Positions 1,061 to 25,193 of a stretch of 43,131 bases of DNA are shown here, piece by piece. Numbering within the stretch: the stretch's first letter is position 1; each line of letters begins with the position of its first letter. The stretch comes from a virus, in IMG/VR virus record IMGVR_UViG_3300023174_000295, positions 1 through 43,131 of that record; one strand, 5' to 3'. Below the pieces are notes generated by a model. That model was given only the letters and a program-made list of their open reading frames with translations, was not told the DNA's origin and did no database searches. Both the position numbers and the translations under genes were made by a program.

Positions 1061-3469
1061 CTAGTTTACAGTGGCGCGGTATATCTTGCCTTGCATATCC
1101 ACGCTAGATTGCAGGAGACTGATCATTTGGTCAAATCGATTGACTTGTTCTGTCATCAATGATACCTGTTCGCCCATTTGGTCACTCATGCCGGTCATTT
1201 CCACAGGCACATTGCGGCCTCCGGGTAGCGGAATCACTGCTTCTGTACCGTGCATCATACTCAGATAACCCGACTTGGGTCCAGCACTGATACCGCCATA
1301 GGCAAAACTGCCCATGGCTTCTTCAAATCCTATAGTGGATTTGTTTGATCCTACCCCTTGATAGAAACTGCGGCCACTGGCATCCATGGGCAAGCCTGCC
1401 CAGATTGATGACAAGTTGCGCATGAATCGTTCTTTGTTTATGGCGCCGGCGGCATACTTGTTGTAACCACCGCGACTCACAATGAGTTCATCTGCCAACC
1501 TATCCTGTGTGGCTTGATCAAACTTGGTAGTGTTGATATCCATACCAGTTTTGTTGATAAGATCCATCAGAGTTGCCCGTGTTATTTGATATTTGCCCAG
1601 GGCTGAGCTTTCAAATCCACTGCCTCTTTGTGTCATCTTTGACTGTTGCTCAAGTATTTGAGCCAGCGTCATGTTGGTTAAGTCGCCTTTTTTGCCACCA
1701 ACCATGACGTTGTAGTCGCCACCACTTTCAGCACGGCCAATCATGTTGCGAATAGCGCCAAGAGTTCCTGCGGCTTCAGGAGTTGGCGCACCGGCACCAC
1801 CTACTCCGGTTGTTGGTGCTTGTTGAACTCCTGTTCCACGACCGCCTGCGCCCGACGGATTGTTACTTGGCGCACCCGGAATACCAGTGGCTGCGCCTCT
1901 ACCGCCTCCACCGCCGGTGCCCGAGACACCTAGTATTTTTGCAATCTTTTCTGCACCTTCGGATATAACTTCAGTAAAGTATTTGACACTGCTAGCCATG
2001 GTAGGAAACAGCTTGTCAGAAACAATCTTATCCAAGGTCACAGCAAAATCCCTTAGACTTTTTTGCGCATCGATAACGTTTTGTGTTTCTTTATCTTTGT
2101 TATCAGTGGCGTCCTTTTGATCTTTGGTTGCTTTGTTTAAAGTATCTGAGTTAAGATCTTGCGCTTTATCCAGGCGGCGCATGCCTACTAACATAGGATC
2201 TAGCACAGTTCCTAGTTTACCAACTCTGCGTTCAAATTCATCTGCACCCAGAGCCTGGCGAGTTTCTCTTACACTCTGCTGGAACTTCTGCATAAACTCG
2301 GCAAAAGATATACGACCGTTTTCCAAGTCATCGGCTAGGCCGGCAGCGGCTCCTCCAGTGGCAGCCATGAGTTCTTGACTGCGTTGTGTGGTAGCACCAC
2401 CAAAGATGTCTTTGAAGCCTTCGGCAATTTCTTTACTACCTTGAGTTTCCAAAACTTTGGCAGCTTTCCTAATACTGTCAGCTGTGTTTTTTTGTTCAGC
2501 AATGGCCAGAGTAGCGCCAAATCTCAACTCTCGACTCATGGCTTCAATTTCACCTGCAACTTTGTCTTTGCTTTGACCTGTTAGCCTTGCCAGTTCATCG
2601 ATTTGTTCTAGATATCTACGATTGGCTTCACTGAGTGCTTTGCCATCTTCAAGATTGATACGAACTAAGTTACGTTGCTGTGCTAGGAACCTAGCAGAGA
2701 ATTCGCTCTGTTGCTCAAAGCTAAAGCCAAGTTTTAAAAATTTATCTTCAAACTCTGTGCCGGCTGTGGTGATTTTTTTAAGGACTTCTGCACCACCTGT
2801 GACTGTTCCTGTGGTTGCGGCAAGGCCTTCACTGTTTCTTGCTATCAGTTTGGCATAGGTGTCTACGCTGAGACCCAGAGCCTGTGCATCTTTCATCAAC
2901 CCGCGCATCGAGGCGCCGGTTATACCACCAACATCACCCAGTGTTTGGAATGCACCAACTACACGCTGTATTTCGCCTAGAGAAAATTTTGCATACTGTG
3001 CGGCCGCATCTACTGCTTCGGCACCATACTTTTGTACTGCTTTACCAGCGCCACTGACTGCTGTACCAAACACACCAACCAGTTTGCCCCAGCCAGGTAA
3101 TACAGCACCAACACCACTTAATATACTGCCCAAAGAATCCATGCCTTTGGCCACACCGCCAAGACTCAACTTTAGACCCTGTGCAGTGGCATCTACTGCT
3201 GGGCCCAATGAACGGAAATCTTCTCTGTTTTCTCTTACTGATTGTGCCGCAGCCCCAATGTTTTTGGCTAGACCAATGAGATCTTTGGTGAGCTTTTCGC
3301 GGGCTTTGACTTCATCGTCTATGGCTTCTATAGACTTGTCTGTGTCTTTGGTCTGCTGTTTTACTGCCGCAGAGAGTTTGTCCAGTGTTTTGGCACTGAG
3401 TGATCCAGCCTTGCGCAGTTCGTCAAGGGCTTCTTTGGCCAGTTGTGTGGAGTTTTCTAGATCTGCCAT
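1061..3469 (-). CDS. Probable tail tape measure protein with lambda-R-like transglycosylase domain
   Basis: 802 residues. The N-terminal part is charged and probably helical or coiled-coil. A glycine/hydrophobic stretch follows at about residues 105-145, and a long helical middle. A Gly/Pro/Ala-rich linker lies at about 515-565. At about 570-720 is a domain resembling the lambda R endolysin (GH104 lytic transglycosylase): GRAESGGDYNVMVGG with candidate catalytic Glu581, ALGKYQI, ATQDRLADELI and LSSIWAGLP match lambda R in order. The end has a GPKSGYLSMMHGTEAVIPL segment of a kind common in tape measure proteins. Its inferred roles are to set tail length in the tail lumen and to open peptidoglycan locally at infection. 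It lies just upstream of the portal gene, and a late-promoter-like octamer lies 32 nt upstream of its ATG. No Shine-Dalgarno is obvious. The tape-measure call rests on length, composition and the C-terminal motif; another virion-associated lysin is the alternative. Confidence 0.7.
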   Translation of the reverse strand: MADLENSTQLAKEALDELRKAGSLSAKTLDKLSAAVKQQTKDTDKSIEAIDDEVKAREKLTKDLIGLAKNIGAAAQSVRENREDFRSLGPAVDATAQGLKLSLGGVAKGMDSLGSILSGVGAVLPGWGKLVGVFGTAVSGAGKAVQKYGAEAVDAAAQYAKFSLGEIQRVVGAFQTLGDVGGITGASMRGLMKDAQALGLSVDTYAKLIARNSEGLAATTGTVTGGAEVLKKITTAGTEFEDKFLKLGFSFEQQSEFSARFLAQQRNLVRINLEDGKALSEANRRYLEQIDELARLTGQSKDKVAGEIEAMSRELRFGATLAIAEQKNTADSIRKAAKVLETQGSKEIAEGFKDIFGGATTQRSQELMAATGGAAAGLADDLENGRISFAEFMQKFQQSVRETRQALGADEFERRVGKLGTVLDPMLVGMRRLDKAQDLNSDTLNKATKDQKDATDNKDKETQNVIDAQKSLRDFAVTLDKIVSDKLFPTMASSVKYFTEVISEGAEKIAKILGVSGTGGGGGRGAATGIPGAPSNNPSGAGGRGTGVQQAPTTGVGGAGAPTPEAAGTLGAIRNMIGRAESGGDYNVMVGGKKGDLTNMTLAQILEQQSKMTQRGSGFESSALGKYQITRATLMDLINKTGMDINTTKFDQATQDRLADELIVSRGGYNKYAAGAINKERFMRNLSSIWAGLPMDASGRSFYQGVGSNKSTIGFEEAMGSFAYGGISAGPKSGYLSMMHGTEAVIPLPGGRNVPVEMTGMSDQMGEQVSLMTEQVNRFDQMISLLQSSVDMQGKIYRATVN

Positions 3470-3479
3470 TATCTACGCC

Positions 3480-3487
3480 GATAAATA
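3480..3487 (+). promoter_or_regulatory. Late promoter candidate for the gp26 unit
   Basis: GATAAATA, 7 of 8 matches to the T4 late consensus TATAAATA, 32 nt before the gp26 ATG. A Shine-Dalgarno (AAGGAA, 3512-3517) follows. The element forms one arm of a perfect 9-bp inverted repeat with the minus-strand octamer at 3502-3509. Confidence 0.6.
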
Positions 3488-3501
3488 TTGTTGCATACAA
3501 A

Positions 3502-3509
3502 TATTTATG
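3502..3509 (-). promoter_or_regulatory. Late promoter candidate for the tape measure-portal unit
   Basis: CATAAATA on the minus strand, 7 of 8 matches to TATAAATA, 32 nt before the tape-measure ATG. That is exactly the spacing of the plus-strand element from its own gene. The two elements face each other, so the predicted start sites of both transcripts lie between them. Confidence 0.6.
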
Positions 3510-3519
3510 GTAAGGAAAC

Positions 3520-4362
3520 ATGCCCGAATCTAACAACCCACTGCGTCGGTTTTTCCGACAACCTGCTGTCTATATCAAGCTACCGTCTGAAGGTAATTTT
3601 TATCCGCCAGGCGCAATAGACATCCCGCCCAACGGCGAATTTCCAATATATGCAATGACTGCCATGGACGAAATCACTTATCGGACTTCAGATGCATTGT
3701 TCAACGGCACAGCCATAATCAACGTGATCAAAAGCTGTGTTCCCAACATCCTTGATCCTTGGAAAATCCCCAACATAGACATGGATACCCTGCTGGTAGC
3801 CATACGCATTGCCAGCTACGGTCATGCCATGGATTTTGAAAGTTCATGCCCGCACTGTGAACACGAAAACTCTTTTGGGTTGGATCTCCGTACCATATTA
3901 GATGGCATGGGCAAAGCCGACTACGGTAGTCCCATGCAAAACGGCGATATCACTATATTCTTTAAACCATTGACTTATCAGCAGGTCAACGCTAATTCTA
4001 TTGATCAATTTGCTGATCAGAAACTGCTGGAAACATTGCCCGATGCCAATGTTCCTGAAGAAGAAAAAATGCGATTATTAACCGGTGCGTTTGCCAAACT
4101 CACTGACATGACCATGCGAGCTTTAACCCAGAGCATAAGCATGATACAGGTCCTAGAGGAAACTGTGGTAGAACCAGAATTCATCGAAGAGTTTATTAGA
4201 AACTGCGATCGTGATGTGTTCAATCGTATCAGAGACCACATTGTATCACTGCGTTCTTCTACCGAGCTCAAACCTCTCAAACTACAGTGTCAAGGCTGCC
4301 AAAAAGACTACGAAACACCATTTACCATGGATGTCTCAAATTTTTTCGGCTCCGCCTCCTGA
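3520..4362 (+). CDS. 26: Baseplate hub assembly protein gp26 (T4_baseplate family)
   Basis: 280 residues. The N-terminal pattern KLPSEGNFYPPG, then AMTAMDEITYRTSDALFNG, IKSCVPNILDPWKIP and LLVAIRIASYG, is characteristic of the gp26-type family (Pfam T4_baseplate) in T4-like phages. Two cysteine pairs, CPHC at about residues 110-113 and CQGC at about 258-261, could bind a metal. In T4, gp26 is needed to assemble the central hub of the baseplate. The ATG at 3520 has AAGGAA 3-8 nt upstream. T4 gp26 is about 208 residues, so this one is longer. Five codons before its stop the frame crosses TTTTTTC (4341-4347), a canonical -1 slippery heptamer. A slip there would join it to the next ORF and give a product of about 352 residues. 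Confidence 0.82.
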   Translation: MPESNNPLRRFFRQPAVYIKLPSEGNFYPPGAIDIPPNGEFPIYAMTAMDEITYRTSDALFNGTAIINVIKSCVPNILDPWKIPNIDMDTLLVAIRIASYGHAMDFESSCPHCEHENSFGLDLRTILDGMGKADYGSPMQNGDITIFFKPLTYQQVNANSIDQFADQKLLETLPDANVPEEEKMRLLTGAFAKLTDMTMRALTQSISMIQVLEETVVEPEFIEEFIRNCDRDVFNRIRDHIVSLRSSTELKPLKLQCQGCQKDYETPFTMDVSNFFGSAS

Positions 4363-4577
4363 CCTCTAGTCCTGAGCGCATCAACAAGATCGTTGAAGCC
4401 CAGGACAAAGAAGTCAAAGCCATACGCGAAGATCTAATGAAAATGTGTTGGTACATGCGAGGCGGCCTAACATACAATGAAGCATTGCACCTCAGTTGGG
4501 AAGAGCGAGAAATCATCGGCACGGTGATCAAAGACAATCTTGAAACAACCAAAAAAACTGGAATGCCACATTTCTAA
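4287..4577 (+). CDS. Short gp26-downstream protein, probably made as a -1 frameshift extension
   Basis: The frame is open from a GTG at 4287, inside gp26, to a TAA at 4575-4577. Only the part after about 4347 looks like protein: LLTSSPERINKIVEAQDKE, then MKMCWYMRGGLTYNEALHL and IKDNLETTKKTGMPHF. From memory, similar CWYMRGG proteins of about 80-90 residues follow gp26 in marine T4-like phages, probably as hub assembly factors. Here no credible start codon with a Shine-Dalgarno lies near the conserved region. The GTG at 4287 is 75 nt inside gp26 with no ribosome site, and the next ATG falls in the middle of the conserved block. The frame is -1 relative to gp26 and joins it exactly at TTTTTTC 4341-4347. 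The next gene overlaps its stop by one base (TAATG). Confidence 0.72.
   Translation: MSRLPKRLRNTIYHGCLKFFRLRLLTSSPERINKIVEAQDKEVKAIREDLMKMCWYMRGGLTYNEALHLSWEEREIIGTVIKDNLETTKKTGMPHF
4341..4347 (+). other. Candidate -1 programmed ribosomal frameshift site
   Basis: T TTT TTC, read in the gp26 frame as AAT TTT TTC, fits the X XXY YYZ rule for -1 slippage. The zero frame stops 15 nt after the heptamer (TGA 4360-4362), while the -1 frame stays open to 4577. Downstream, GTCCTG (4369-4374) can pair with CAGGAC (4401-4406) around an inner TCAAC/GTTGA stem. That structure starts 21 nt after the site, further away than usual stimulators. Confidence 0.55.
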
Positions 4578-5855: not shown

Positions 5856-5864
5856 TACACTTTG

Positions 5865-5883
5865 AGAACTTCTACGAAGTTCT
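5865..5883. repeat. Perfect hairpin just after the DUF6614 gene
   Basis: AGAACTTC (5865-5872) and GAAGTTCT (5876-5883) form an 8-bp perfect stem with a TAC loop, 10 nt after the stop. It lacks a GC-rich stem and a run of T, so it is a weak terminator at best. Confidence 0.5.
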
Positions 5884-5888
5884 ATTCA

Positions 5889-5936
5889 TTTCGCTTACGC
5901 TCATGAATATATTATTAAGAGATGAGCGAAGCGAAA
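5889..5936. repeat. Long imperfect inverted repeat
   Basis: TTTCGCTTACGCTCAT (5889-5904) pairs with ATGAGCGAAGCGAAA (5922-5936), giving 15 bp with a single bulged base and a 17-nt AT-rich loop. This is one of the longest stems in the window. It could stabilise the 3' end of the upstream transcript or be a protein-binding site. Confidence 0.55.
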
Positions 5937-5963
5937 CAGTTATCATCCAGATACCTTGGTCAC

Positions 5964-5986
5964 ACTTTGCCCGCACAGGGCAAAGT
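5964..5986. repeat. Perfect 9-bp hairpin
   Basis: ACTTTGCCC (5964-5972), loop GCACA, then GGGCAAAGT (5978-5986). It is stable in either strand. No T run follows on either side, so it is not a standard intrinsic terminator. Confidence 0.5.
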
Positions 5987-6120
5987 TAGAACTGTCATCA
6001 TCCGAGTACGAACAGTCACTTAGCGTTACATCATTACAGAGGCGGTTGTCCGGTACCTCGAGATGTGTCTTTATCACAACGGCGGCCTGCATACAATACG
6101 CTAACATTGCATACAAACGT

Positions 6121-6151
6121 GTGCTATCACTAGCACGTCTTTTTCCCTTTT
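6121..6151 (+). terminator. Rho-independent terminator candidate (plus strand)
   Basis: GTGCTA TCAC TAGCAC (6121-6136), extendable by two wobble pairs, is followed by GTCTTTTTCCCTTTT. This is the only hairpin in the 5856-6300 region with a proper T tract, and it points in the direction of the gp26-DUF6614 unit. Its distance of about 265 nt from the last stop leaves a long 3' leader, or a small RNA ending here. Confidence 0.6.
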
Positions 6152-6300
6152 GTCTACTCTATTCAAACAATCAAACCGCAGGAGTTTGCGATCGTGGTCC
6201 TGTCAAGGATACTGATTGAGTGCTCACTAGCGCGGTGAGTCTTCCATCCCTGTGATCCGTGATCCAGGTCTAGGGCACACGACTTTGGCCTGTGCCAGCC

Positions 6301-6735
6301 TTAACTGCTTAATTTGCCTTTGATATGACTGCCATGTACACGGACTTGAATATGTCCGTTGTAATAGTCGTCACTTTCTAATACACGTCGGGAGAATTGT
6401 TCGCGAGCTTCAATGTAACTGCATTCCGATTTGGATTTACAGTAATATAGTATTTCGCGTGAGAAGTTTTCTATGCCTAGCAGTTCAACGTCTCGAGATA
6501 ACTCTGGAGAACTGCCATAATATGTTTGCCAGTCAGATTCAATTTTGCCTTTGATTTTTTTGCGTTTCTTTTTACCGTTTTTAAGTTTTACTACTTTATA
6601 TGTTGTCTTTGAGAACTTTGCTAATTTTTTTCCAATGTACTTCCTGCCGGTTGAGTTATTTGTGATCAAATAAACAAAACCAACACAATCGTCGGGCAAT
6701 GCTGAAATTTCTGTGCTTTCGTATAACCATGTCAT
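6301..6735 (-). CDS. GIY-YIG family endonuclease-like protein
   Basis: 144 residues. GFVYLITNNSTGRKYIGKK at about residues 19-37 is the GIY-YIG signature (here VYL and YIG). It is followed by a Lys-rich KKRKKIKGKIESDWQTYYG segment and SKSECSYIEAREQFSRRVL, which supplies the conserved Glu region. GIY-YIG nucleases nick or cut DNA with one metal ion; in T4-like phages relatives occur as Seg-type homing enzymes and as stand-alone conserved nucleases. This short form without a DNA-binding C-terminal module resembles the stand-alone type widespread in cyanophages. It is the last gene of the minus-strand operon, 17 nt after the rSAM-1 stop. A role in phage DNA processing is inferred. Confidence 0.82.
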   Translation of the reverse strand: MTWLYESTEISALPDDCVGFVYLITNNSTGRKYIGKKLAKFSKTTYKVVKLKNGKKKRKKIKGKIESDWQTYYGSSPELSRDVELLGIENFSREILYYCKSKSECSYIEAREQFSRRVLESDDYYNGHIQVRVHGSHIKGKLSS

Positions 6736-6752
6736 GCACTGTAATTACCATA

Positions 6753-7763
6753 TTACCACTCTGTTGCATATTTTTCATCTACCCTGCTTGTGTTACACTT
6801 TGTTTGGCATTCTTGCCACCCAAAACTTTTAAATTCTGTATTCCAAAAATCGTCAGTTACAACATCTGACAGTGTTCGGCGATGTAAGTTAAACTGTTCA
6901 GCCAAGGTTTGCCAGTCAGAGTTGTGACTGTATCGATTGGCAACCCAACAACACGGAAACAGTCGGCCGCGAGCATCTATGTATAGACCTTTGTTACCAA
7001 TTTCACACAACGGAGTTACTCCGTTGACTTCTTTGACAGATTTATAAAGTTGGATGTTTGTTGATTTTACTTTGTTGTTTAACCCACGCGAGCTTAACAG
7101 TATAACATCTCTTTCGAATCTATGCGAGTTACTTACAAATTTTTTACTGGGTTCCAGTGGGTCGTTAACTCCGTAGCTGGGATAGATAGTCCCAAATTTA
7201 GTGCTTTTAGTGAATTGTATAGCATCAAACCCGTGGCTTTGTGCCATGGATTCCATAGTGTCCAATTGGTTTTCGTTGAATCTAAATGCAATGGCATCCC
7301 ACACTATACGACATCTACTGACCGATCGCAAAATGTCAACGCCTTGCATGATACTATCAAAATCGCTGTTTACTCGGTACAAGTTGTTGCTGTCATTGTC
7401 CCACCCATCAATGCTAAAATGCACAGTATCTTCTTCACTTAATACATAACCTAGATCTTCCCACCACTCGGGTTTCTTGTGACTTCCGTTGGTGATAATA
7501 ACTATCTCAACTGGTTTGATGCTTTTGATGTATTCAATGACTGGTATAAGATCATGTGCGTAGATAGGATCTCCATCGTCACCACAGAATGTAATCTTTT
7601 CTACATTGTTGAGAATAAATTCTTCTGTGAAATTTCTTTTGAAAAATTCTAAATCTAATTCGGTGTTTATCAATGTATCAGGAACTTCTTGCCGAGCACA
7701 TCGCGGACACCGCAAAGTGCATTTGCTAGAAATTTCAATGTGAAAATGCCAAGTGGCTAGCAC
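6753..7763 (-). CDS. Radical SAM protein rSAM-1 with C-terminal auxiliary cluster motif
   Basis: The CTLRCPRC motif near the N terminus is the CxxxCxxC that binds the 4Fe-4S cluster cleaving S-adenosylmethionine. ITFCGDDGDP follows as the GGEP-like SAM-binding strand. The C-terminal third has PLC, then GLYIDARGRLFPCCW, and finally ECQTKC. These cysteines fit a SPASM/twitch auxiliary iron-sulfur site as in peptide- or protein-modifying enzymes. The substrate is unknown. I chose the GTG at 7763 because AGAGGTGG lies 4-7 nt before it. An in-frame ATG at 7784 would add seven residues but has no ribosome site and overlaps rSAM-2 further. It overlaps the rSAM-2 stop by 7 nt, implying coupling, and is about 20% identical to rSAM-2 by eye, so they may be ancient paralogues. 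Confidence 0.82.
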   Translation of the reverse strand: MLATWHFHIEISSKCTLRCPRCARQEVPDTLINTELDLEFFKRNFTEEFILNNVEKITFCGDDGDPIYAHDLIPVIEYIKSIKPVEIVIITNGSHKKPEWWEDLGYVLSEEDTVHFSIDGWDNDSNNLYRVNSDFDSIMQGVDILRSVSRCRIVWDAIAFRFNENQLDTMESMAQSHGFDAIQFTKSTKFGTIYPSYGVNDPLEPSKKFVSNSHRFERDVILLSSRGLNNKVKSTNIQLYKSVKEVNGVTPLCEIGNKGLYIDARGRLFPCCWVANRYSHNSDWQTLAEQFNLHRRTLSDVVTDDFWNTEFKSFGWQECQTKCNTSRVDEKYATEW

Positions 7764-8653
7764 AATTCCACCTCTCGTTGCCATTGATTAGAAAAACTAG
7801 TGTCACCGCTGTCAACACCGCAGGTATCCATACAAACAATATTAGGTTGCAAACTGTTCCAAGAACTTTTAACTTCTTCAAAATCTTTGACAAAGTCTCG
7901 TTGTCTGCTTCCTAGCCAACAACAAGGGCTTACTCTTCCTTGCGCATCAATATAAACGCTCTGTTCTTTTAATGCATGGCAATCAATTGCTTTTGCCACA
8001 ACATTGGGACTTTGCCATCCAATGGGAGATTCTAACTTGCCAATCAATGCACGTTTGCTTACTTTGGCACGAAACCATTTAAAGCCCATGTCACGTGCCA
8101 GTTGTTCGCAAGCATCAACTTGATGCTGATTGTGTTTGTAAACCAACATGTCCCAGTGTGCTGACCCTCCAGCGGCAATAAATGCTTCTGCATTGGCCAT
8201 CAGTTTGGACCAATTGACATTGACTCTATAATCAGCATTGGTGTCCTCTAGTCCGTCGATGCTAAACACACAGTAGTCCAAAGGTTTGTTTAAAATTTTA
8301 GCCAGGCTATGCCACCAAAACGTAGTACCAATGGCACCATTGGTATTCATACCTAGTACGATATCAGGATTTTGCTGGCGAAACCATTCGTAGATAGCAA
8401 TGGTATGATTGCCAGCAGCCGGATCGCCGTAGTTGCCGCACATAAACATCTTGTCAAGATTGACAACGAATTCTTCAGGGAGAATAGATTCTAATTGTTC
8501 TACAGATAATTGGTGGCGACGACTTTTATCAAAATTCTTATCTGTTTCTCGAGCGCAGAGAGGACATGCCGCCTGGCAAACATCAGTGGGCTCAAGATGC
8601 AGAACTTTGATATTACGCGATGTCAACATCTGTGTTGTAACTTGTAAATCCAT
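7757..8653 (-). CDS. Radical SAM protein rSAM-2 with C-terminal auxiliary cluster motif
   Basis: 298 residues. LEPTDVCQAACPLC gives CxxxCxxC at Cys26, Cys30 and Cys33. MFMCGNYGDPAAGN is the SAM-binding strand in the same position as in rSAM-1. The C-terminal part repeats the rSAM-1 layout: DCHALKEQSVYIDAQGRVSPCCW, then CMDTC, a probable second iron-sulfur site of SPASM/twitch type. The start at 8653 overlaps the gp46 3' end by 41 nt; an alternative ATG at 8629 reduces this to 17 nt, and neither has a strong Shine-Dalgarno. It lies in one operon with gp46 upstream and rSAM-1 downstream. No peptide precursor gene was found nearby, so a RiPP role is unsupported; modification of a protein, RNA or nucleotide remains open. 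Confidence 0.82.
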   Translation of the reverse strand: MDLQVTTQMLTSRNIKVLHLEPTDVCQAACPLCARETDKNFDKSRRHQLSVEQLESILPEEFVVNLDKMFMCGNYGDPAAGNHTIAIYEWFRQQNPDIVLGMNTNGAIGTTFWWHSLAKILNKPLDYCVFSIDGLEDTNADYRVNVNWSKLMANAEAFIAAGGSAHWDMLVYKHNQHQVDACEQLARDMGFKWFRAKVSKRALIGKLESPIGWQSPNVVAKAIDCHALKEQSVYIDAQGRVSPCCWLGSRQRDFVKDFEEVKSSWNSLQPNIVCMDTCGVDSGDTSFSNQWQREVELC

Positions 8654-10376
8654 TTTCTTTTACCACTTTTAAAATATTTTCTACACGACCGGCCAACTCA
8701 TCTCTGTGACTTACTAACCAAATTGATTTGTGCCGCTCACGACTCATCTTCTTGAGCAACGCTAAACTATTTTCCACACCCTGTGTGTCCATGCCTGAAT
8801 CAACCAGCTCGTCAATGAACAGCAAGTTGATGGGCGAGTACAAACTTTCCCATACATCACGGAATGCCCACGACATTGATAAGATTAGTCGATTACGTTC
8901 ACCACGGCTCAAGTTATCAAAGTCTAAGTCACGGCCCAACTCAGTGATTTCCACTGTGAGATCATTTTGGAATACAACCTGATGCGGCAATCCAATGCGA
9001 TCTAGATAGTGAGTGAGACGAGCATTTAAGTAGCTCAAGTTTTGTTCAATGATCTTCTTGCGGATAAACGAATCTTTGTTTGTGAGTAACTTTAGCAAGA
9101 AATCTTGATGTTCTTGCAGTCTTGTGAGTTCATTGAGTGTATCGTACGTTACTACCTGCAAAGCCTGTCCAGTCATTTCTTCAATCTGTTCACCATATGG
9201 ATCAGTTTCAACAGATTTTTCAGCAATTTGTTTTTCTAAATTAGTCAGTGTGGCTTGATGGTGTACAGCATCAGCTTCGTTGTCATAGAACATCTTGGGA
9301 GGTTTGCCTAACGTGCCCAAGGAGTCGTGGGCAATCTGTAGTTCTGATAAGAGGGTGCTGTGTTCCTGGCTTGACGCTCTTGCACCTGCCAGATCTTTCT
9401 GTTTCGCTTCCAAAACTTGTTGGTGCTTATTGTCGTGGAACGGTTGACCACATGTGTGACAGGTGTGAGATTCAAGTGTTGCAATCTCTTTGCTAAGTTT
9501 TTCAATGCTTTTGTTTTCTCGATCCACGTCAAGTTTCGTGCGGGAGATCTGGCTAGATAAGTCGTTAAGATCTTTGCGTTTCTGATCCCAAACACGGTGC
9601 GCCTTGTGTGCTTCAATCTCCGCTTCGATGTCAATCTTCTTGAGTTCTTCCAACGCCGTTTGTAACTTCTCAACTTCTTCATCATGTTTGGTCACCCACA
9701 TTGTTTGTCGCCGACGCAGATTTTCTATTTGTTCTTCTATGCGTTTGTTGGCTTCCTGTACTGCACGGATACGCATCTCTTCTTGTGAGATGCCATCCTT
9801 GGTTTCTTTGTTGAGTTCTTTAATACGCTCAGCACGTTCACTCAACAAAGTAATGCCCAAGAGCTGTTCAATTATGGCTCGTTGATCGTTGGCCTTTAAG
9901 CTCAAAAAAGGTTCAGTGTAGGTGTTTAGTGCCAGCACATGTTTAAACATGTCATGTGTCATGCCCAGTGCAGACTCTATGGCATCTTGTGTTTCTCTGC
10001 TGTCACCCTGACTGTTATCATCTGCGGCTTGTTCTTCGTTGTTGACATAAAATTTAAGTATGTTAGGCTTGCGACCGCGCTCAATTTTGTAATCTCTACC
10101 GTTGATATTAAAATCCAAACTAACCAACATATTCTTGCCGTTGGTTTTGTTTATTAGATTATCTCTACGAATGTTAGTAAGTGCTTGCCCATATAACGCA
10201 TAGCTCAATGCATTGATAATAGTTGTTTTACCTGTGCCGTTTCTTGAACCGTCTCCACCAAGATCCAAATTTTCACCCAACACCAGCGTGAGGTCTCTGC
10301 GATCAAAGTTAATGGCCTGTGTAGCATTGCCCACACTCATAAAGTTTTTAACTGTTAGGTCTTTGATTTGTATCAT
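8613..10376 (-). CDS. 46: Recombination endonuclease subunit gp46 (Rad50/SbcC-like ATPase)
   Basis: 587 residues. The Walker A lies at about residues 36-55 in GDGSRNGTGKTTI. Two long coiled-coil arms flank the zinc hook CHTCGQ at about 303-308. The ABC signature LSRGERNR and Walker B INLLFIDELVDSG lie near 490-520, with a VSHRDEL switch after them. With gp47 it forms the Mre11/Rad50-type complex that resects DNA ends for recombination-dependent replication and degrades host DNA. T4 gp46 is about 560 residues, so the length is normal. The gene starts 9 nt after the rSAM-3 stop. The gp47-gp46 order is as in T4, but the rSAM-3 gene has been inserted between them. Confidence 0.95.
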   Translation of the reverse strand: MIQIKDLTVKNFMSVGNATQAINFDRRDLTLVLGENLDLGGDGSRNGTGKTTIINALSYALYGQALTNIRRDNLINKTNGKNMLVSLDFNINGRDYKIERGRKPNILKFYVNNEEQAADDNSQGDSRETQDAIESALGMTHDMFKHVLALNTYTEPFLSLKANDQRAIIEQLLGITLLSERAERIKELNKETKDGISQEEMRIRAVQEANKRIEEQIENLRRRQTMWVTKHDEEVEKLQTALEELKKIDIEAEIEAHKAHRVWDQKRKDLNDLSSQISRTKLDVDRENKSIEKLSKEIATLESHTCHTCGQPFHDNKHQQVLEAKQKDLAGARASSQEHSTLLSELQIAHDSLGTLGKPPKMFYDNEADAVHHQATLTNLEKQIAEKSVETDPYGEQIEEMTGQALQVVTYDTLNELTRLQEHQDFLLKLLTNKDSFIRKKIIEQNLSYLNARLTHYLDRIGLPHQVVFQNDLTVEITELGRDLDFDNLSRGERNRLILSMSWAFRDVWESLYSPINLLFIDELVDSGMDTQGVENSLALLKKMSRERHKSIWLVSHRDELAGRVENILKVVKENGFTSYNTDVDIA

Positions 10377-10385
10377 TGTTATAGT

Positions 10386-11876
10386 TTACACGTATCTCAT
10401 GGCTTTTGCAATCTCATAATGACTCTCGGCAAAATTTTCCTCTCGCACCTGATCAAACCATTTAATCTTGGATCTAAAATCATCTCCGTTGCTGTCTGGT
10501 ATTTCTTGGATGATTTTGATAACCTGTTGCATTTCGTCCCAGGGATGGTCTTTGAATTTTTCAATAATTAGATCTTTGGCTTCTCGAGTTAGATCTTGAA
10601 GTTCAAATCCTGTTCCGCGAGCATGACTGACAAACAGTTGAAATCCATGTTTGGTTGCCCAATCGTAGACTTGATCAATGTAATACACATTCATAGCACC
10701 GATGGTGGGCATAAGACTGATACTAAGATTTGGCAAGCCTAGATCTTTGAGACGTAAAATGTTGCTCTCAACTTCGCTCCAGTTTCCACCGCGCTCCAAT
10801 TCAAACTGCTTGCCAATGGCATCAATGCTAAAGTGTATGTCAACTTGTCTGAAATTGGGCCAGTATGGTAAAAAGTGTTCGGGCCAAACTGATCCGTTGC
10901 TGTTGTAGTGTAATCGGATATTTTTAGCATGCCCGTGATCAACTGCCAACTTTAAAACTTCTTTGAATTTTTTTACTAAAAATGGTTCCCCACCGTACAT
11001 GTCAATGTTGTGTATGCTAGGCAAATGAGAAATCATTTGATTTATAAAATCTTCACTTTCGCTCCAGTTGTCTTGCGATATCAACGGAATGCCACGAAAT
11101 TTATGATTCTCCAATGCAAACAAAGAACTGTTGCTTGGCCCACAGATCCTGCATTTAAAATTACAGGTGTTATTGAATTTGATATCCATTGTTGCCAACT
11201 GTGGCTGATCAAGATACTTGAGTAAAAAGTCTTTTTTCAATCGTTTGATATTGTGTATGCGAATTGAAGTTAGATTTTTTTCTTCTGCTTTCCAGCATCC
11301 TCTGCAAATCTCAGGACGTTCTCCGGCCAGCAACCCTCTTCGTAGTTCCTGTAAGCCCTGGCCGTTGAAAACCTGATCAAGTGTGGTGTGTTTGATATTT
11401 CCCAGAGTAGACCCACTGGTCATACAACACGGCGTGATACCTCCATCGGTTTGTATTTCCAAATGTGTCCACGGTATTGCACACACAGTGTCTGGTAAGA
11501 AAAACTTGTCCTCAATGCTGTGCGTGGGCACGAGATCAGTGTATTGAAATTGAAACGGAATAGGATCGTGGGAGAACTGTTTACAGGCAGATTCAATGGA
11601 TGTTTCTAGTTCAGCTGGACCACAGATCAATACAAACCAGTTGCTGATGTCAATAAAATTAACCGTCTCGTATAAATGTTTTAGAAAATTTTCTGGCAAC
11701 ATATGAGAAGTATAAAACACTATGCGATCTGTTGGTTGATAGCTGGATTGGTAAATTTTATGAAGTAGTTTGAATAATCCATTGGGACTTGTTGACATCT
11801 CTCCAATGTCACACATGTGCTTGATGTCAAATTTAGATTTTAGTTGACGTTCTAGTTCTTGTGTAGATATGGTCAT
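10386..11876 (-). CDS. Radical SAM protein rSAM-3 with N-terminal twitch/SPASM-like domain
   Basis: 496 residues. The order of domains is reversed relative to rSAM-1 and rSAM-2. A cysteine cluster, CAIPWTHLEIQTDGGITPCC at about residues 132-151 followed by CRGCW, comes first. The radical SAM motif CNFKCRIC is at about 237-244, followed by MYGGEP for SAM binding. This matches the class described as N-terminal-twitch radical SAM proteins. The first 120 residues look like a separate alpha/beta domain I do not recognise. The ATG overlaps the gp47 stop (ATGA) and the stop lies 9 nt before gp46, so it is translationally embedded in the gp47-gp46 pair. The reaction and substrate are unknown. Confidence 0.85.
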   Translation of the reverse strand: MTISTQELERQLKSKFDIKHMCDIGEMSTSPNGLFKLLHKIYQSSYQPTDRIVFYTSHMLPENFLKHLYETVNFIDISNWFVLICGPAELETSIESACKQFSHDPIPFQFQYTDLVPTHSIEDKFFLPDTVCAIPWTHLEIQTDGGITPCCMTSGSTLGNIKHTTLDQVFNGQGLQELRRGLLAGERPEICRGCWKAEEKNLTSIRIHNIKRLKKDFLLKYLDQPQLATMDIKFNNTCNFKCRICGPSNSSLFALENHKFRGIPLISQDNWSESEDFINQMISHLPSIHNIDMYGGEPFLVKKFKEVLKLAVDHGHAKNIRLHYNSNGSVWPEHFLPYWPNFRQVDIHFSIDAIGKQFELERGGNWSEVESNILRLKDLGLPNLSISLMPTIGAMNVYYIDQVYDWATKHGFQLFVSHARGTGFELQDLTREAKDLIIEKFKDHPWDEMQQVIKIIQEIPDSNGDDFRSKIKWFDQVREENFAESHYEIAKAMRYV

Positions 11877-12889
11877 AATGCCTGATAGATCTGTAACAGT
11901 AATTTTGGATCGTAAAACTCTGATTCAATCTTGGTGATTTGATCTGTGACAATTTGATCCACACTTTCAAATTTAACTTCTCCAGGTGCTAGATCCTCTT
12001 CCAAAGCTGAACGTTTGTTGGGCATAAGAGCCATTTCTCTAAGATTGTGTTTGCTTATGAATGTATCTTTGATCAGCCCTGCTTCTTCGTAGCTGATTTC
12101 AATGTCCAACTGCACACGCACATGCATGTTGGGCTTGAGCAGTTGATCCCCACGATCTAACAACGTGGAAAGATCAAATACGTTATAAAGCGGTTGGTTA
12201 GGCCAAGCATGATATTCGGGTTCTGCACCCCAATCAAGAATCATACACCCACGCTTGTCGTCACCAGCATCAGCAAAGTTATGTGGAAATGCATTGCCAA
12301 TGTAGTTGATATTGTTTTTGTGTTGGCGCAAGTGGAAGTGACCAGAAAATACTTTGTCATAGTGGCCAAAGTGTGCGGCCTGTATTTCTCCATGATCGGG
12401 CATTTCTACCATGGCGTTCATTTTGAAATGAGGCAGTTCAAAATGTCCAAACATATACTTGCTGGACATTTTCTGTATGCGTTTATGATCATCGCCCACC
12501 AACCAAGGAGCAATGATGACATCGCCTTCTTCAAACCAGTCATTGCAGATATGGATGTTGGGCAAATGTCGGGCCCAGGCCGCTCCATGAATGTCGCGCT
12601 TGTCTCGATAGTACAAGTCGTGATTGCCAGGAATAAAGAAAAACTGCGAAAAGGCATTGGATAGTTTTTCCAATGCCTGCAAGCTAAAGTTTAGTGTCTG
12701 TAAGTTAATTGACGCACGATGATGATGCCAATCGCCTAAGAACATTCCAGTTTCGCAACCATGTTCCTTGCCGGTGGCAATAATCCAGTCTACAAACTGT
12801 TCGCAATCTTGATTGTGTAATAGGCTATTCGATTTCAGTCCAAAGTGGATGTCAGTGAAAACGATAGCCTTCTTGAATAAGTTGGCCAT
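11873..12889 (-). CDS. 47: Recombination endonuclease subunit gp47 (Mre11/SbcD-like)
   Basis: From the ATG at 12889 the protein has 338 residues (MANLFKKAIVFTDIHFG). The metallophosphoesterase motifs are in order: DIHFG, GDWHHHR, FIPGNHD and, near residue 180, GHFHLRQ. These bind the two Mn ions of Mre11-type nucleases. It partners with gp46. A longer in-frame start at 12973 would run back into gp55 and would place the first motif abnormally far from the N terminus, so I prefer 12889, 14 nt after the gp55 stop. No strong Shine-Dalgarno is visible, so reinitiation after gp55 is likely. T4 gp47 is about 339 residues, the same length. Confidence 0.95.
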   Translation of the reverse strand: MANLFKKAIVFTDIHFGLKSNSLLHNQDCEQFVDWIIATGKEHGCETGMFLGDWHHHRASINLQTLNFSLQALEKLSNAFSQFFFIPGNHDLYYRDKRDIHGAAWARHLPNIHICNDWFEEGDVIIAPWLVGDDHKRIQKMSSKYMFGHFELPHFKMNAMVEMPDHGEIQAAHFGHYDKVFSGHFHLRQHKNNINYIGNAFPHNFADAGDDKRGCMILDWGAEPEYHAWPNQPLYNVFDLSTLLDRGDQLLKPNMHVRVQLDIEISYEEAGLIKDTFISKHNLREMALMPNKRSALEEDLAPGEVKFESVDQIVTDQITKIESEFYDPKLLLQIYQAL

Positions 12890-12903
12890 AGAGTAGCAGT
12901 ATA

Positions 12904-13800
12904 CTATTCTTCTGAGCTGTTTGCAACCGCTTCGGCTGCTTTGTTGTGGCTTTCGGAAAATTGACGTGTCCAACTAGGATTGAGTCCGTTTATTTCTAGT
13001 ATGTCGTCGCGTATGTTTTGCATCTTTTTCTCAATGTTCAACACACGAGTGAAGCTATTAGTGATAGCGGCAGTATAATACGCAAAAGGGTTCTGCGATT
13101 TTGACTCATCAAATTGCAGTCCAATTTGACTGAGCTGTAGCAGGGCTTGTCCCCGCATTTCTTCGTTGTATGTGTATCCACGCCAGTTACTCCTTGTAGC
13201 ATATCTTTCGCATAACTTAATAAACATTGTGGCCAATTTATTGGTCATTTTGCCATGATCTTTGCTGAATTCGCCTGTGTCTAAGGCACCCTTCCAGTGC
13301 GATTTACCCACCAAAAAAGGCTCTTTATTTTCGTCTAAACGGTAGTGATAGAAGGGAGGAAAGTTCAATCTCACGTAGTTCATATCCAGCACAGGAACTT
13401 CTACCAGCTCCTCTAATCCGTCGGATTCTGCGGTGTCATCAAGCTCTAACAGCTCTTCCATCTTGCTTTTTTTAGCCTGCGCTTTGGTTTGTTTCTTGGG
13501 AGCCATGGGTATGTGATCCCAGCAAGTGATGCGAAACACCAGATCTGTGTGCGGAATTTTTTTGTCATTGACAACTTCGCCAGTTTCTCGCTTGATACGA
13601 TCAGCACGATTGCGTCGTGCTTCAGCAACGGTACGCTGATTGATTTTTTCTAAACTGGGCAAAATTATGTCGTATTGATGATCAATAACACGATCTCGAT
13701 ATGAACAGTATGTGTTCTTGCTTAGGTGTATTTCTTTTAAAATATCTCTATTGTTGAGATAATTGACTTTTTTTGGTGTGGGCGTAGCTGTTGTAGCCAT
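12904..13800 (-). CDS. 55: Late sigma factor gp55-like, with long N-terminal extension
   Basis: 298 residues from the ATG at 13800. The C-terminal half carries the sigma-70 region-2-like pattern of T4 gp55: GYTYNEEMRGQALLQL, FDESKSQNPFAYYTAAITN and FTRVLNIEKKMQ. gp55 replaces host sigma on RNA polymerase and recognises TATAAATA late promoters. T4 gp55 is 185 residues; here an unrecognised basic N-terminal part of about 100 residues, including RRNRADRIKRE, and a KKQTKAQAKKSKMEELLELDD linker precede the sigma region. I see no hydrophobic/acidic C-terminal tail of the sort T4 gp55 uses to bind the sliding clamp; the end is ESHNKAAEAVANSSEE. The start is set by AGGAGA 10 nt upstream. The ATG at 13839 lies upstream of the predicted transcription start. 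Confidence 0.85.
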   Translation of the reverse strand: MATTATPTPKKVNYLNNRDILKEIHLSKNTYCSYRDRVIDHQYDIILPSLEKINQRTVAEARRNRADRIKRETGEVVNDKKIPHTDLVFRITCWDHIPMAPKKQTKAQAKKSKMEELLELDDTAESDGLEELVEVPVLDMNYVRLNFPPFYHYRLDENKEPFLVGKSHWKGALDTGEFSKDHGKMTNKLATMFIKLCERYATRSNWRGYTYNEEMRGQALLQLSQIGLQFDESKSQNPFAYYTAAITNSFTRVLNIEKKMQNIRDDILEINGLNPSWTRQFSESHNKAAEAVANSSEE

Positions 13801-13827: not shown

Positions 13828-13855
13828 ATTATACAACACTCTCGTCCTTTGTCAA
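13828..13855 (-). promoter_or_regulatory. Consensus sigma70 promoter for the gp55-gp46 operon
   Basis: On the minus strand TTGACA (13855-13850), a 16-nt spacer and TATAAT (13833-13828) match the bacterial housekeeping consensus at all 12 positions. The start site is predicted near 13821, giving a leader of about 20 nt with AGGAGA before the gp55 ATG at 13800. Host polymerase should read it early without phage factors. Confidence 0.85.
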
Positions 13856-21785: not shown

Positions 21786-24700
21786 ATGGCCAAGACTACA
21801 AGACAAACTGCGATATTTGGAGTAGAGGACTGGAAGAGAATCTACCAGACTTACCGCGAAGCTGACTTTCAAAGCTACGACTTTGAAACGCTACGCAAGA
21901 GCTTCATTGACTACATTCGGATATATTATCCAGAAAACTTCAACGACTACATTGAGTCCAGCGAATTTGTGGCCTTGCTGGATGTCATGGCATTTATGGG
22001 ACAGTCGCTGTCCTTCCGCAATGACTTAAACATCCGTGAAAATTTCTTAGACACAGCAGAACGTAGAGATAGTGTTGTGCAGTTGGCTAACCTGGTTAGC
22101 TATACTCCAAAACGTAACCAAGAAGCGCAGGGTTATCTCAAAGTATTCAACGTATCAACCACAGAGAATGTGATAGACTTCAACGGTCAGAATCTCAGCG
22201 GTATCACAGTAAACTGGAATGATGTGACCAACGCCAACTGGCAAGAACAGTTCACAGTCATCCTCAATGCTGCCTTGGTTGACAGCCAAAGATTTGGTAA
22301 ACCAGGCGCTACTAAAAACATTCTTGGAGTAGAAACACAAGAATACAGTTTGAATTTAGTTCCGGGCTATTTGCCAGTGGTACCATTTACTGCCACAGTG
22401 GATGGAACTTCAATGACATTTGAAGCTGTAAGCTCAACATTTCAAAATGAAGACTATGTCTACGAGCCTGCACCGCGCCCATCGGGTATTTTTAATGTGT
22501 TGTTCCGTACCGATCGCTTGGGCTACGGTAGTCCCAATACAGGATTCTTTTTCTACTTCAAACAAGGTACACTACAAAATCAAGACTTTAATCTTGGCGA
22601 GCGCATTTCCAATCGTGTTGTGGCTGTAAACATTGAAGGCATCAACAATGACGACGTTTGGCTGTATCAGCTAGATGATGTAGGCAACATACAATTTGAA
22701 TGGGACAAAGTGCCCAGCTTGTATTCAGCGGCGGTTGAGCAACTGGCTCCCGATGCACGTAAATTCTTTGCAGTGACATCGAGAACCAATGATCAGATCA
22801 ATTTAAACTTTGGTGATGGAGTGTTTACAGAAATTCCTGTGGGCACATTCCGTTCTTATGTGCGTGCCTCCAACGGTCTGCAATACATCATCAACCCTGA
22901 AGAAATGCAAGCCATACAGATCAGCATTGGTTATGTAAGCCGCACTGGTCGTCTTGAAACCATTACATTTACTTGTGGCCTCAGTCAGCCAGTTTCCAAT
23001 GCGGCTTCTAGAGAAAGCCTGGCAGACATCAAGAGTCGTGCACCTGCTCGATACTACACACAAAACCGCATGGTCAATGGCGAAGATTACAACAATTTTC
23101 CTTATACCCTGTTTGGTACAATCATCAAATCAAAGGCAGTCAACCGCAGTTCCATTGGTACTAGCCGTTACCTTGACCTGGTTGACATCACAGGAAAATA
23201 TTCCTCAACCAACATTTTTGCCAGTGATGGCCTGATCTGGGAAAATACAGCCAGCCCAAGTTTTACTTTTACATTCGTTGACAAAAATGACATATCCAAC
23301 ATCATTGTCAATGCAGTTGAACCTGCACTGTCCAGTCGTGGAATGTTGGAATTCTATTATCAAAATTTCCTACGCCCTAGTTTGATCCCCATTGGTATCA
23401 AGTGGCAACAAAGTACCACAGCACTGAACGAAACCACTGGCTACTTTGAATTTATTGCGTCTGGCGCACCAGCACCCATTGGTCCTCAAACCAGTGACAA
23501 CAAAAAATACATGACACAAGGATCTTTGATCAAATTTGTTCCGCCTGCTGGCTACTACTTCGACGCCAATAACCGACTTAAATTAGGTGTTCCTGTATTG
23601 CCCAATGATAAGATAGTGTTATGGGCCACAGTCAGTGCTTTGATACTGGATGGTACTAATTTTGGCACAGGAAACTTGGCCAACGGTCAAGGTCCTGTGG
23701 TGTTAAACAACTTTATCCCAACAGGTGCCATACCTACACAAGTGATACCCAAGTTTATCACAGACTTGCCAACCACACTTGAACAGTCAATGATTGATCA
23801 AATTGAACTCTATAGAAATTTTGGTATTGGGTTTGACAATCTCACAGGTACCTGGTACCTAATTACCAGCCAAAATCTCAATCCTGCAACTACGTTTAGT
23901 TTGGCCAATGCACAAGATCAGTCAGGTCAAGGACTTGATAATTCCTGGCTAGTAGCGTTTGAAACAGATGGCGTTACATACACAGTGTCATACCGTGCTC
24001 TGCAAAGATTTTGGGGCAGTGTATTGCAAACTCGTTTCTTCTATGACGGATCGCAGGCAGTGTATGATCCTCGCACAGGTTCTGTGATCAATGATTTTAT
24101 CAACTGTCTCAAAACCAATAACTTACCTGATGTATCATTGCCGTTGAACAACGATGTTATAATGGACATCATCGGTCAACCCATACAATCAGATGGATAC
24201 ATTGATGATTTCCAGGTGCAGATTAGTTTTAAAGATTTTGACAACGATGGTGTAGCCGACGATCCAGATTATTTTGAAACTTTGGTAGCTCCAGAAATAA
24301 ATCCCACAACCAAGTATGTTTTCTTCCAACAAACAGTTGACTTTGACAATCTTGAACGTTACTTGCCTTTAAACAAAGGACAAGTAATCAGTGATTATGC
24401 CACATTGGATCAAATTGAATTGGCCAAAGCTGAATACTCAGATGGCCAGTATTTCTATGCCTATGATGACTTGGTATTCTATGAACTTGACATTGCCTTT
24501 AATGGTGTGAGAACTCTTACACAAGTTGAAGGACTTGTTGCACGAGTCGGCCGTCAAGATTTGTATTTCCAATACAGACACAATGCTCCATTGAACAGAC
24601 GTATCGATCCAGGATCATCCAACATCATTGATATCTACTTGGTCACTTCAGCTTACTATAATTCCTATCAGAATTACATCAAAGATTCAACTGGCACTGT

Positions 24701-25193
24701 ACCAATGCCATCACCTCCAACCATTGACGAATTAGGTACAGCATATAACAGTCTTCAAAAATATAAGATGATATCAGACAACGTGATTCTAAATTCAGTG
24801 GTGTTCAAACCCTTGTTCGGTGCCAAGTCTTCGCCCGAACTACGTGCCACTCTCAAAGTTGTGCGCAGTTCAGCGTCGGTTGTAAGCGTCAGCGAAATCA
24901 AGAGTCGCATGGTTGCTGCCGTCAACGAATATTTTACCATTGACAAATGGGACTTTGGGCTTACATTCTTCTTCTCAGAATTGGCAGCCTACTTGCACAA
25001 AGAGTTAGGTGATATTATCTCCACAGTGGTACTGGTGCCACAAGATCCGCTGAAGAGTTTTGGCGACTTGTATGAAATACGTTGCCAACCCAACGAGATA
25101 TTTGTAAATGCAGCCACGGTCAACGACATTGAAGTCATTGATGCATTGACCAGCAGTGAATTAAGAACCGCACCAAATAGCGGGGTAGTATAA
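21786..25193 (+). CDS. 6: Baseplate wedge subunit gp6
   Basis: 1135 residues. The N-terminal block, YRIYYPENFNDYIESSEFVA-like in wording (here IRIYYPENFNDYIESSEFVA), then LLDVMAFMGQSLSFRNDLN and ENFLDTAERRDSVVQLANLV, followed by SYTPKRNQEAQG, is the conserved start of T4 gp6. The C-terminal region with LFGAKSSPELRATLKVVRS and DIISTVVLVPQDPL also fits. gp6 dimers form the inner iris ring of the baseplate that triggers sheath contraction. T4 gp6 is 660 residues, so this homologue has about 470 extra residues in the middle, beta-rich and acidic. It lies between gp25 and the giant gp7-position gene and ends 2 nt before the latter's ATG. Confidence 0.92.
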   Translation: MAKTTRQTAIFGVEDWKRIYQTYREADFQSYDFETLRKSFIDYIRIYYPENFNDYIESSEFVALLDVMAFMGQSLSFRNDLNIRENFLDTAERRDSVVQLANLVSYTPKRNQEAQGYLKVFNVSTTENVIDFNGQNLSGITVNWNDVTNANWQEQFTVILNAALVDSQRFGKPGATKNILGVETQEYSLNLVPGYLPVVPFTATVDGTSMTFEAVSSTFQNEDYVYEPAPRPSGIFNVLFRTDRLGYGSPNTGFFFYFKQGTLQNQDFNLGERISNRVVAVNIEGINNDDVWLYQLDDVGNIQFEWDKVPSLYSAAVEQLAPDARKFFAVTSRTNDQINLNFGDGVFTEIPVGTFRSYVRASNGLQYIINPEEMQAIQISIGYVSRTGRLETITFTCGLSQPVSNAASRESLADIKSRAPARYYTQNRMVNGEDYNNFPYTLFGTIIKSKAVNRSSIGTSRYLDLVDITGKYSSTNIFASDGLIWENTASPSFTFTFVDKNDISNIIVNAVEPALSSRGMLEFYYQNFLRPSLIPIGIKWQQSTTALNETTGYFEFIASGAPAPIGPQTSDNKKYMTQGSLIKFVPPAGYYFDANNRLKLGVPVLPNDKIVLWATVSALILDGTNFGTGNLANGQGPVVLNNFIPTGAIPTQVIPKFITDLPTTLEQSMIDQIELYRNFGIGFDNLTGTWYLITSQNLNPATTFSLANAQDQSGQGLDNSWLVAFETDGVTYTVSYRALQRFWGSVLQTRFFYDGSQAVYDPRTGSVINDFINCLKTNNLPDVSLPLNNDVIMDIIGQPIQSDGYIDDFQVQISFKDFDNDGVADDPDYFETLVAPEINPTTKYVFFQQTVDFDNLERYLPLNKGQVISDYATLDQIELAKAEYSDGQYFYAYDDLVFYELDIAFNGVRTLTQVEGLVARVGRQDLYFQYRHNAPLNRRIDPGSSNIIDIYLVTSAYYNSYQNYIKDSTGTVPMPSPPTIDELGTAYNSLQKYKMISDNVILNSVVFKPLFGAKSSPELRATLKVVRSSASVVSVSEIKSRMVAAVNEYFTIDKWDFGLTFFFSELAAYLHKELGDIISTVVLVPQDPLKSFGDLYEIRCQPNEIFVNAATVNDIEVIDALTSSELRTAPNSGVV

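Follow-up and report, generated by a model that had tools for sequence, protein, structure and literature searches.

Radical S-adenosylmethionine (radical SAM) genes are numerous in several phages related to T4. The Campylobacter group II phages CP220 and CPt10 carry 11–12 of them, with exchangeable clusters of five that are accompanied by glycine-amidinotransferase-like and nucleotide-sugar-transferase-like genes (PMC2853527; NC_027997). In the marine T4-like genome TARA_ERS488813_N000010 there are 12 radical SAM genes together with genes for Fe–S assembly (PMC5332604), and in the host-recognition island of pelagimyophages radical SAM cassettes are found in a hypervariable region with lipopolysaccharide-type glycosyltransferases (PMC7029224). 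Here, we consider three radical SAM genes, termed A, B and NT, that are placed among the gp46- and gp47-like recombination nuclease genes of IMG/VR record IMGVR_UViG_3300023174_000295. The stretch analysed, called the window in the following, is the complete record of 43,131 bases and represents a fragment of a larger phage.

CP220 and CPt10 share with the window a radical SAM-rich, T4-related background, and they encode distant homologues of A and B (25% and 21% identity, respectively). They are, however, of another lineage with another host, and their module has not been shown to lie within a gp46/gp47 operon. The relatives of the window are contigs of the same lineage that were fetched by gp46-based scans; many exceed 100 kb and the longest reaches 345 kb. 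In contrast to CP220 and CPt10, they have up to 21 radical SAM genes and share a set of carbamoyltransferase, DegT and epimerase genes, and cassette slots separate their gp55, gp47, gp46 and segE genes. A block of several radical SAM genes with an amidinotransferase gene is seen in these relatives near the carbamoyltransferase gene; the 43 kb window itself has three radical SAM genes and no amidinotransferase-like gene was noted there. The marine phages differ in being smaller, with radical SAM genes outside the recombination operon, and a carbamoyltransferase/amidinotransferase core is not described in the available parts of the two reports (PMC5332604; PMC7029224).

We see about an even chance that A, B and NT are interchangeable enzymes with a tailoring role in a phage amino-sugar or glycan pathway, expressed early and functionally apart from recombination. 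This would correct the original prediction, which placed the three enzymes with the recombination proteins. It also regarded them as the best candidate for an undescribed system. That claim has to be narrowed, since radical SAM-rich phages are already published (PMC2853527; PMC5332604; PMC7029224). The operon slots and the amino-sugar-type core beside radical SAM genes were not found described in the literature searched, and no description of this radical SAM arrangement in jumbo or huge phages was found in the open-access literature. The slots inside the recombination operon, the high gene counts and the conserved pathway core look new.

Operon layout and variable slots

The following features make up the operon and its immediate surroundings.

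13828–13855, minus strand: sigma-70 promoter TTGACA-16-TATAAT ahead of gp55, matching the consensus at 12 of 12 positions
12904–13800, minus strand: gp55-like late sigma factor, the first gene of the operon (phrog_12791, 253 bits)
11873–12892, minus strand: gp47-like recombination nuclease subunit of the SbcD/Mre11 type (phrog_100, 209 bits)
10386–11876, minus strand: NT, radical SAM protein with an N-terminal twitch domain, 496 residues, preceded by a further alpha/beta region at its N-terminus (about residues 1–113; NF033640, 287 bits)
8613–10376, minus strand: gp46-like recombination nuclease subunit of the SbcC/Rad50 type (phrog_77, 343 bits)
7757–8653, minus strand: B, radical SAM protein with a C-terminal twitch domain, 298 residues, paralogue of A (PF04055, 25.7 bits)
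6753–7763, minus strand: A, radical SAM protein with a C-terminal twitch domain, 336 residues, GTG start (PF04055, 40.1 bits)
6301–6735, minus strand: SegE-like GIY-YIG endonuclease, the last gene of the operon (PF19835, 116.7 bits)
6165–6300, minus strand: Polynucleobacter-1 RNA (RF01718), directly 3' of segE (110.5 bits, gathering threshold 37)

The gene order on the minus strand is thus gp55, gp47, NT, gp46, B, A and segE. That three CxxxCxxC proteins share one operon with the gp46/gp47 pair had been predicted, and the open reading frames (all three on the minus strand at the predicted positions), the profile matches and the promoter agree with it. The description of stops and starts that overlap or nearly touch is likewise borne out. 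There are overlaps of 4 nt between gp47 and NT, 41 nt between gp46 and B (counted from the longest B start) and 7 nt between B and A, a gap of 9 nt between NT and gp46, and a short gap between A and segE. For A, the relatives back the GTG start at 7763, since their consensus starts at the same residue. A promoter with at least 11 of the 12 consensus bases precedes gp55 in 68 of 86 relatives and in none of 86 shuffles; the same comparison gave no excess of sigma-70 promoters before B or A. Given this conserved promoter and the lack of an excess before A and B, gp55 through segE are likely to form a single early transcription unit.

In the relatives the order gp55–gp47–gp46–segE is constant and the three slots between these genes vary from phage to phage. 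At most 80 loci were kept per scan, slot open reading frames were called mechanically and the contigs are fragments of uncertain completeness. Among the 56 loci that were fetched through gp46 and had bounds for both inner slots, the number of radical SAM genes was zero in 17, one in 19, two in 14, three in four and four in two; A, B and NT at 50% identity or more were together in none of them. Across 170 bounded gp46/segE slots, a tally that spans all loci and is biased since some were fetched via A or B, 53 hold both A and B, 40 B alone, 30 A alone and 47 neither. Genes of the NT type were found in all three slots. Protein distances of A and B follow those of gp46 (Mantel r of 0.58 and 0.65, respectively, compared with 0.71 for gp47), as expected for a pair that is long resident and has been lost in places. 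On these comparisons B and A behave as a frequent, mostly vertically inherited old pair, and NT as an exchangeable type of cassette that hops between slots.

The slots hold other cargo as well: AMP-binding, short-chain dehydrogenase, RmlD/epimerase, ThiF, methyltransferase, Rieske oxygenase, 2-oxoglutarate–Fe(II) oxygenase, sulfotransferase and aminotransferase genes. Many slot genes were left without a name by the Pfam scans of the phages. The picture that emerges from the compared loci is of a three-slot backbone holding radical SAM and other tailoring-enzyme genes in shifting combinations.

The original prediction envisaged a dedicated trio that acts with gp46 and gp47 in recombination-dependent replication and would be undermined if each gene occurred independently in related phages. 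The shared operon, its tight or overlapping junctions and the tracking of gp46 by the A and B distances speak for such a trio. Independent occurrence is nevertheless largely what is observed. No locus of the 56 holds the trio and 17 retain gp46 and gp47 with no radical SAM gene in the slots; A occurs without B in 30 and B without A in 40 of the 170 slots; NT-like genes are mobile; unrelated metabolic genes share the slots. In PA5oct, the gp46 of which is the best cultured match to the gp46-like protein (52% identity), gp47 and gp46 are adjacent with nothing between them and the genome-wide radical SAM count is zero. We consider a dedicated trio to be highly improbable, and a role of A, B and NT in recombination is disfavoured by these genomic patterns.

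We also note that the SegE gene occupies the same place across the mapped relatives, always at the border of a variable slot. In the long relatives the protein at this position is typically 71–85% identical, and the most divergent ones still show about 40%. SegE may drive cassette exchange or may have been domesticated.

Three proteins, two kinds of enzyme

A and NT score above the cut-off of the Pfam model Radical_SAM (PF04055; 46.4 bits for NT). B, at 25.7 bits compared with a cut-off of 29.5, falls short, and its membership of the superfamily is rescued by paralogy with A (26% identity over 277 residues). The paralogy means that there are two kinds of enzyme and not three, as the original description of three different radical SAM enzymes would imply. 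The placement of auxiliary cysteines at the C-terminus of two proteins and the N-terminus of the third was correct: SPASM-type stretches and cysteine conservation put them at the C-terminus of both A and B, whereas those of NT are N-terminal.

All three proteins have CxxxCxxC in the radical SAM core. In A, Cys15/Cys19/Cys22 and Cys253/Cys271/Cys272/Cys319/Cys323 are invariant among 40 relatives; in B, Cys26/Cys30/Cys33 and Cys225/Cys244/Cys245/Cys274/Cys278 are invariant among 47. For NT (30 relatives) Cys238, Cys245, Cys132, Cys191 and Cys194 are invariant and Cys242, Cys150 and Cys151 are conserved in at least 90%. Such conservation cannot have arisen by chance and indicates that A, B and NT are maintained enzymes. 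A full SPASM domain has two auxiliary clusters and about seven auxiliary cysteines. This assignment was rejected for A and B, which have five conserved cysteines each in the auxiliary region and score below the Pfam SPASM cut-off. Their cysteines (Cys253, Cys271/Cys272, Cys319 and Cys323 in A; Cys225, Cys244/Cys245, Cys274 and Cys278 in B) suffice for one 4Fe–4S cluster, in keeping with a twitch domain, which is a truncated SPASM domain with a single such cluster (PMC9012708).

NT matches NF033640 (twitch domain-containing radical SAM, N_Twi_rSAM) over residues 129–490, with 287 bits compared with a cut-off of 170. Its SPASM stretch (132–195) precedes the radical SAM core (233–405), which is the layout of that family. 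Matches of the NT structure in BFVD are to phage radical SAM proteins, including the family member of KVP40, a MoaA/nifB/pqqE protein. NT is set apart from NF033640 by the further stretch of about 113 residues at its N-terminus. No homologue of NT was found in annotated phages by tblastn. We know of no function for the NF033640 family.

The AlphaFold models have predicted local distance difference test scores of 81.8 for A, with a weak region at residues 11–30 (the CxxxCxxC loop), and 92.5 for NT. The best fold match of A in the Protein Data Bank (PDB) is BlsE (7vob, E = 2e-9), followed by viperins, EpeE, MoaA and anSME, all of these matches having TM scores of about 0.5; a sequence search of A against the PDB gave no match. 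The NT profile matches the twitch domain of BtrN (E = 3e-6). BlsE is the cytosylglucuronate decarboxylase of blasticidin S biosynthesis and BtrN an aminocyclitol dehydrogenase of aminoglycoside biosynthesis. The likeness is one of analogy, radical sugar chemistry beside amidino- and aminotransferases; identities are at most 17% over partial alignments, with no orthology.

The high rank of viperins among the fold matches of A, together with a weak profile match, brings to mind chain-terminating nucleotides of the viperin kind, or some other small molecule for counter-defence or for killing competitors. Such a role appears very unlikely. The prokaryotic viperin model NF038283 scores A at 26.7 bits and NT at 27.2 bits compared with a cut-off of 180, and on this score the viperin assignment was dropped. 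A has a conserved set of auxiliary-cluster cysteines, which to our knowledge viperins do not possess.

Many SPASM and twitch enzymes are peptide maturases (PMC9012708), and SkfB, SuiB and EpeE are among the structure matches of NT and A. Maturation of a peptide or protein is the usual task of SPASM enzymes, whether as in ribosomally synthesized and post-translationally modified peptides (RiPPs) or at a specific site of a virion or host protein; the 4830-residue virion protein encoded nearby could serve as substrate, and a ThiF-family gene occurs in the slot cargo. The gene context argues otherwise. That no precursor peptide is visible had been remarked originally, and B, A and segE are indeed packed nearly without gaps; no conserved small coding frame lies beside A, B or NT. 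At 5856–6300 both strands show conservation like that of a reading frame, at the place of conserved RNA. The maturase models give unspecific matches well under their cut-offs, and the neighbouring genes are of the nucleotide-sugar type. A RiPP system with a precursor gene beside A, B or NT was rejected on this ground, and any precursor would have to be encoded at a distance. Overall, we regard peptide or protein maturation as improbable.

A probable amino-sugar-type setting in the relatives

The preferred reading, sugar tailoring, draws on the genomes of the relatives. In 14 long relatives (149–345 kb) there are 8–21 PF04055 matches each, and several have arrays of five to eight radical SAM genes, of which many are NT-like and a few A/B-like by BLAST. 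A, B and NT are probably the local part of an expansion of twitch-type radical SAM proteins that extends over the whole genome in this jumbo-phage lineage. All 13 relatives examined have a single carbamoyltransferase gene within about 6 kb of radical SAM genes as well as a DegT/StrS sugar aminotransferase and an NAD epimerase, usually adjacent. An amidinotransferase, identified as such by PDB hits to the arginine:glycine and inosamine-phosphate enzymes, is present in 11 of the 13 with 64–66% identity. All seven records of at least 261 kb, and none of the shorter ones, encode a NifU Fe–S scaffold protein. In two genomes, the Pfam families commonest within 3.5 kb of radical SAM genes are Clp protease, NAD-epimerase/GDP-mannose-dehydratase-type and DegT, with AMP-binding and carbamoyltransferase next. 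These neighbourhoods suggest an amino-sugar-type biosynthetic setting. Beside the radical SAM array of one jumbo-phage relative (L259) are a tryptophan-halogenase-family flavoenzyme (3222–4469, plus strand, 306 bits) and an AMP-binding enzyme (1760–3247, plus strand).

Among the matches listed, the closest cellular relative of NT, and the one convincing relative of this kind, is encoded beside genes for an ABC-2 exporter of the polysaccharide type, three glycosyltransferases and sulfate-activation genes that form 3'-phosphoadenosine 5'-phosphosulfate. Separately, cellular N_Twi_rSAM genes form arrays in Bdellovibrionota (L306–L319), where they make up 53 of the 144 genes of 14 regions compared with one of 135 in control regions; one genome has up to 50 candidates at first look.

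Several points weigh against sugar tailoring. The amino-sugar core is not within the 43 kb window, and the link is made through the relatives. Matches to family-2 glycosyltransferases occur in just seven of the 13 relatives, some of them weak, and the Clp proteases mentioned above are also among the commonest neighbour families. The association of the Bdellovibrionota NF033640 regions with polysaccharide genes is weak (three GT2, one Polysacc_synt_2 and one carbamoyltransferase among 77 proteins) and has no control-region Pfam scan for comparison. Finally, the fold matches of the A model span nucleoside-sugar, nucleotide and peptide substrates, and so leave the substrate unfixed.

Phage DNA is known to be decorated with groups of the carbamoyl and aminoacyl type, which lends support to a different proposal, that the radical SAM enzymes make a hypermodified base for phage DNA or for tRNA and so protect DNA or tune translation while gp46 and gp47 process DNA. 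The probable early operon common to both sets of genes would suit this, as would the QueD-like gene near the radical SAM cluster of CP220. On the other side, the DegT, epimerase and amidinotransferase set suggests sugars, gp46 and gp47 are kept at loci with no radical SAM gene in the slots, and thymidylate-synthase-fold proteins, which include base hydroxymethylases, occur in only one of 13 relatives. No Tet/JBP oxygenase match was found in the 13 either, a weak point as no positive control gave a signal. We judge modification of nucleic acids to be unlikely.

If A, B and NT do tailor sugars, the CxxxCxxC cluster would reductively cleave SAM to give a 5'-deoxyadenosyl radical that takes hydrogen from the substrate, as the conserved cysteines and what is known of the superfamily suggest. 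The four-cysteine twitch cluster could then accept an electron, as has been proposed for the two-electron oxidation carried out by BtrN (PMC9012708). The substrate would most likely be an amino sugar or nucleotide sugar from the phage-borne pathway, the parts of which in the relatives are the epimerase/dehydratase, the DegT/StrS aminotransferase, the carbamoyltransferase and usually the amidinotransferase near radical SAM genes. The product might decorate the host surface polysaccharide or the virion, leading to superinfection exclusion or a change of receptor, and swapping of slots would vary the decoration. The position beside gp46 and gp47 would serve early expression, with no part in recombination. 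More tentatively, and with somewhat less confidence than in sugar tailoring as such, we propose a combinatorial radical tailoring of surface sugars, in which a conserved phage amino-sugar pathway has its product diversified by as many as about 20 interchangeable radical SAM enzymes, kept as cassettes in several slots that include those of the early recombination operon.

Were sugar tailoring correct, a widespread freshwater lineage of jumbo phages would spend at least a dozen genes on oxygen-sensitive radical sugar chemistry and carry its own Fe–S scaffold gene. It would bear on the abundance of radical SAM genes in CP220, the marine relatives and other T4-related phages, provide early-expressed candidates for glycosylation of the virion or exclusion of superinfecting phages, and be a source of new sugar-modifying radical enzymes.

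RNA elements and other features of the window

The Polynucleobacter-1 RNA is located between convergent genes in an intergenic region that is kept in many relatives, and is here a phage RNA. At its discovery in 2010 it was listed from Burkholderiales and from fresh water and estuary (PMC2864571), which suggests a freshwater origin of the lineage. Just beyond it is a second conserved RNA-like element (5925–6080, minus strand). Its hairpin has seven pairs with compensatory changes on both sides and is flanked by the direct repeats ACTCGGATGATG and ATCTGGATGATA, which vary in step; no Rfam match was found for the element.

ARAGORN calls a tRNA-Asp(gtc) at 22228–22311 on the minus strand, antisense within the baseplate-wedge gene 21786–25193, which may be a mimic or simply a false call. 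The virion protein of 4830 residues is encoded by a single open reading frame (25196–39688, plus strand) of the structural family phrog_10938 that is unusually long for a phage.

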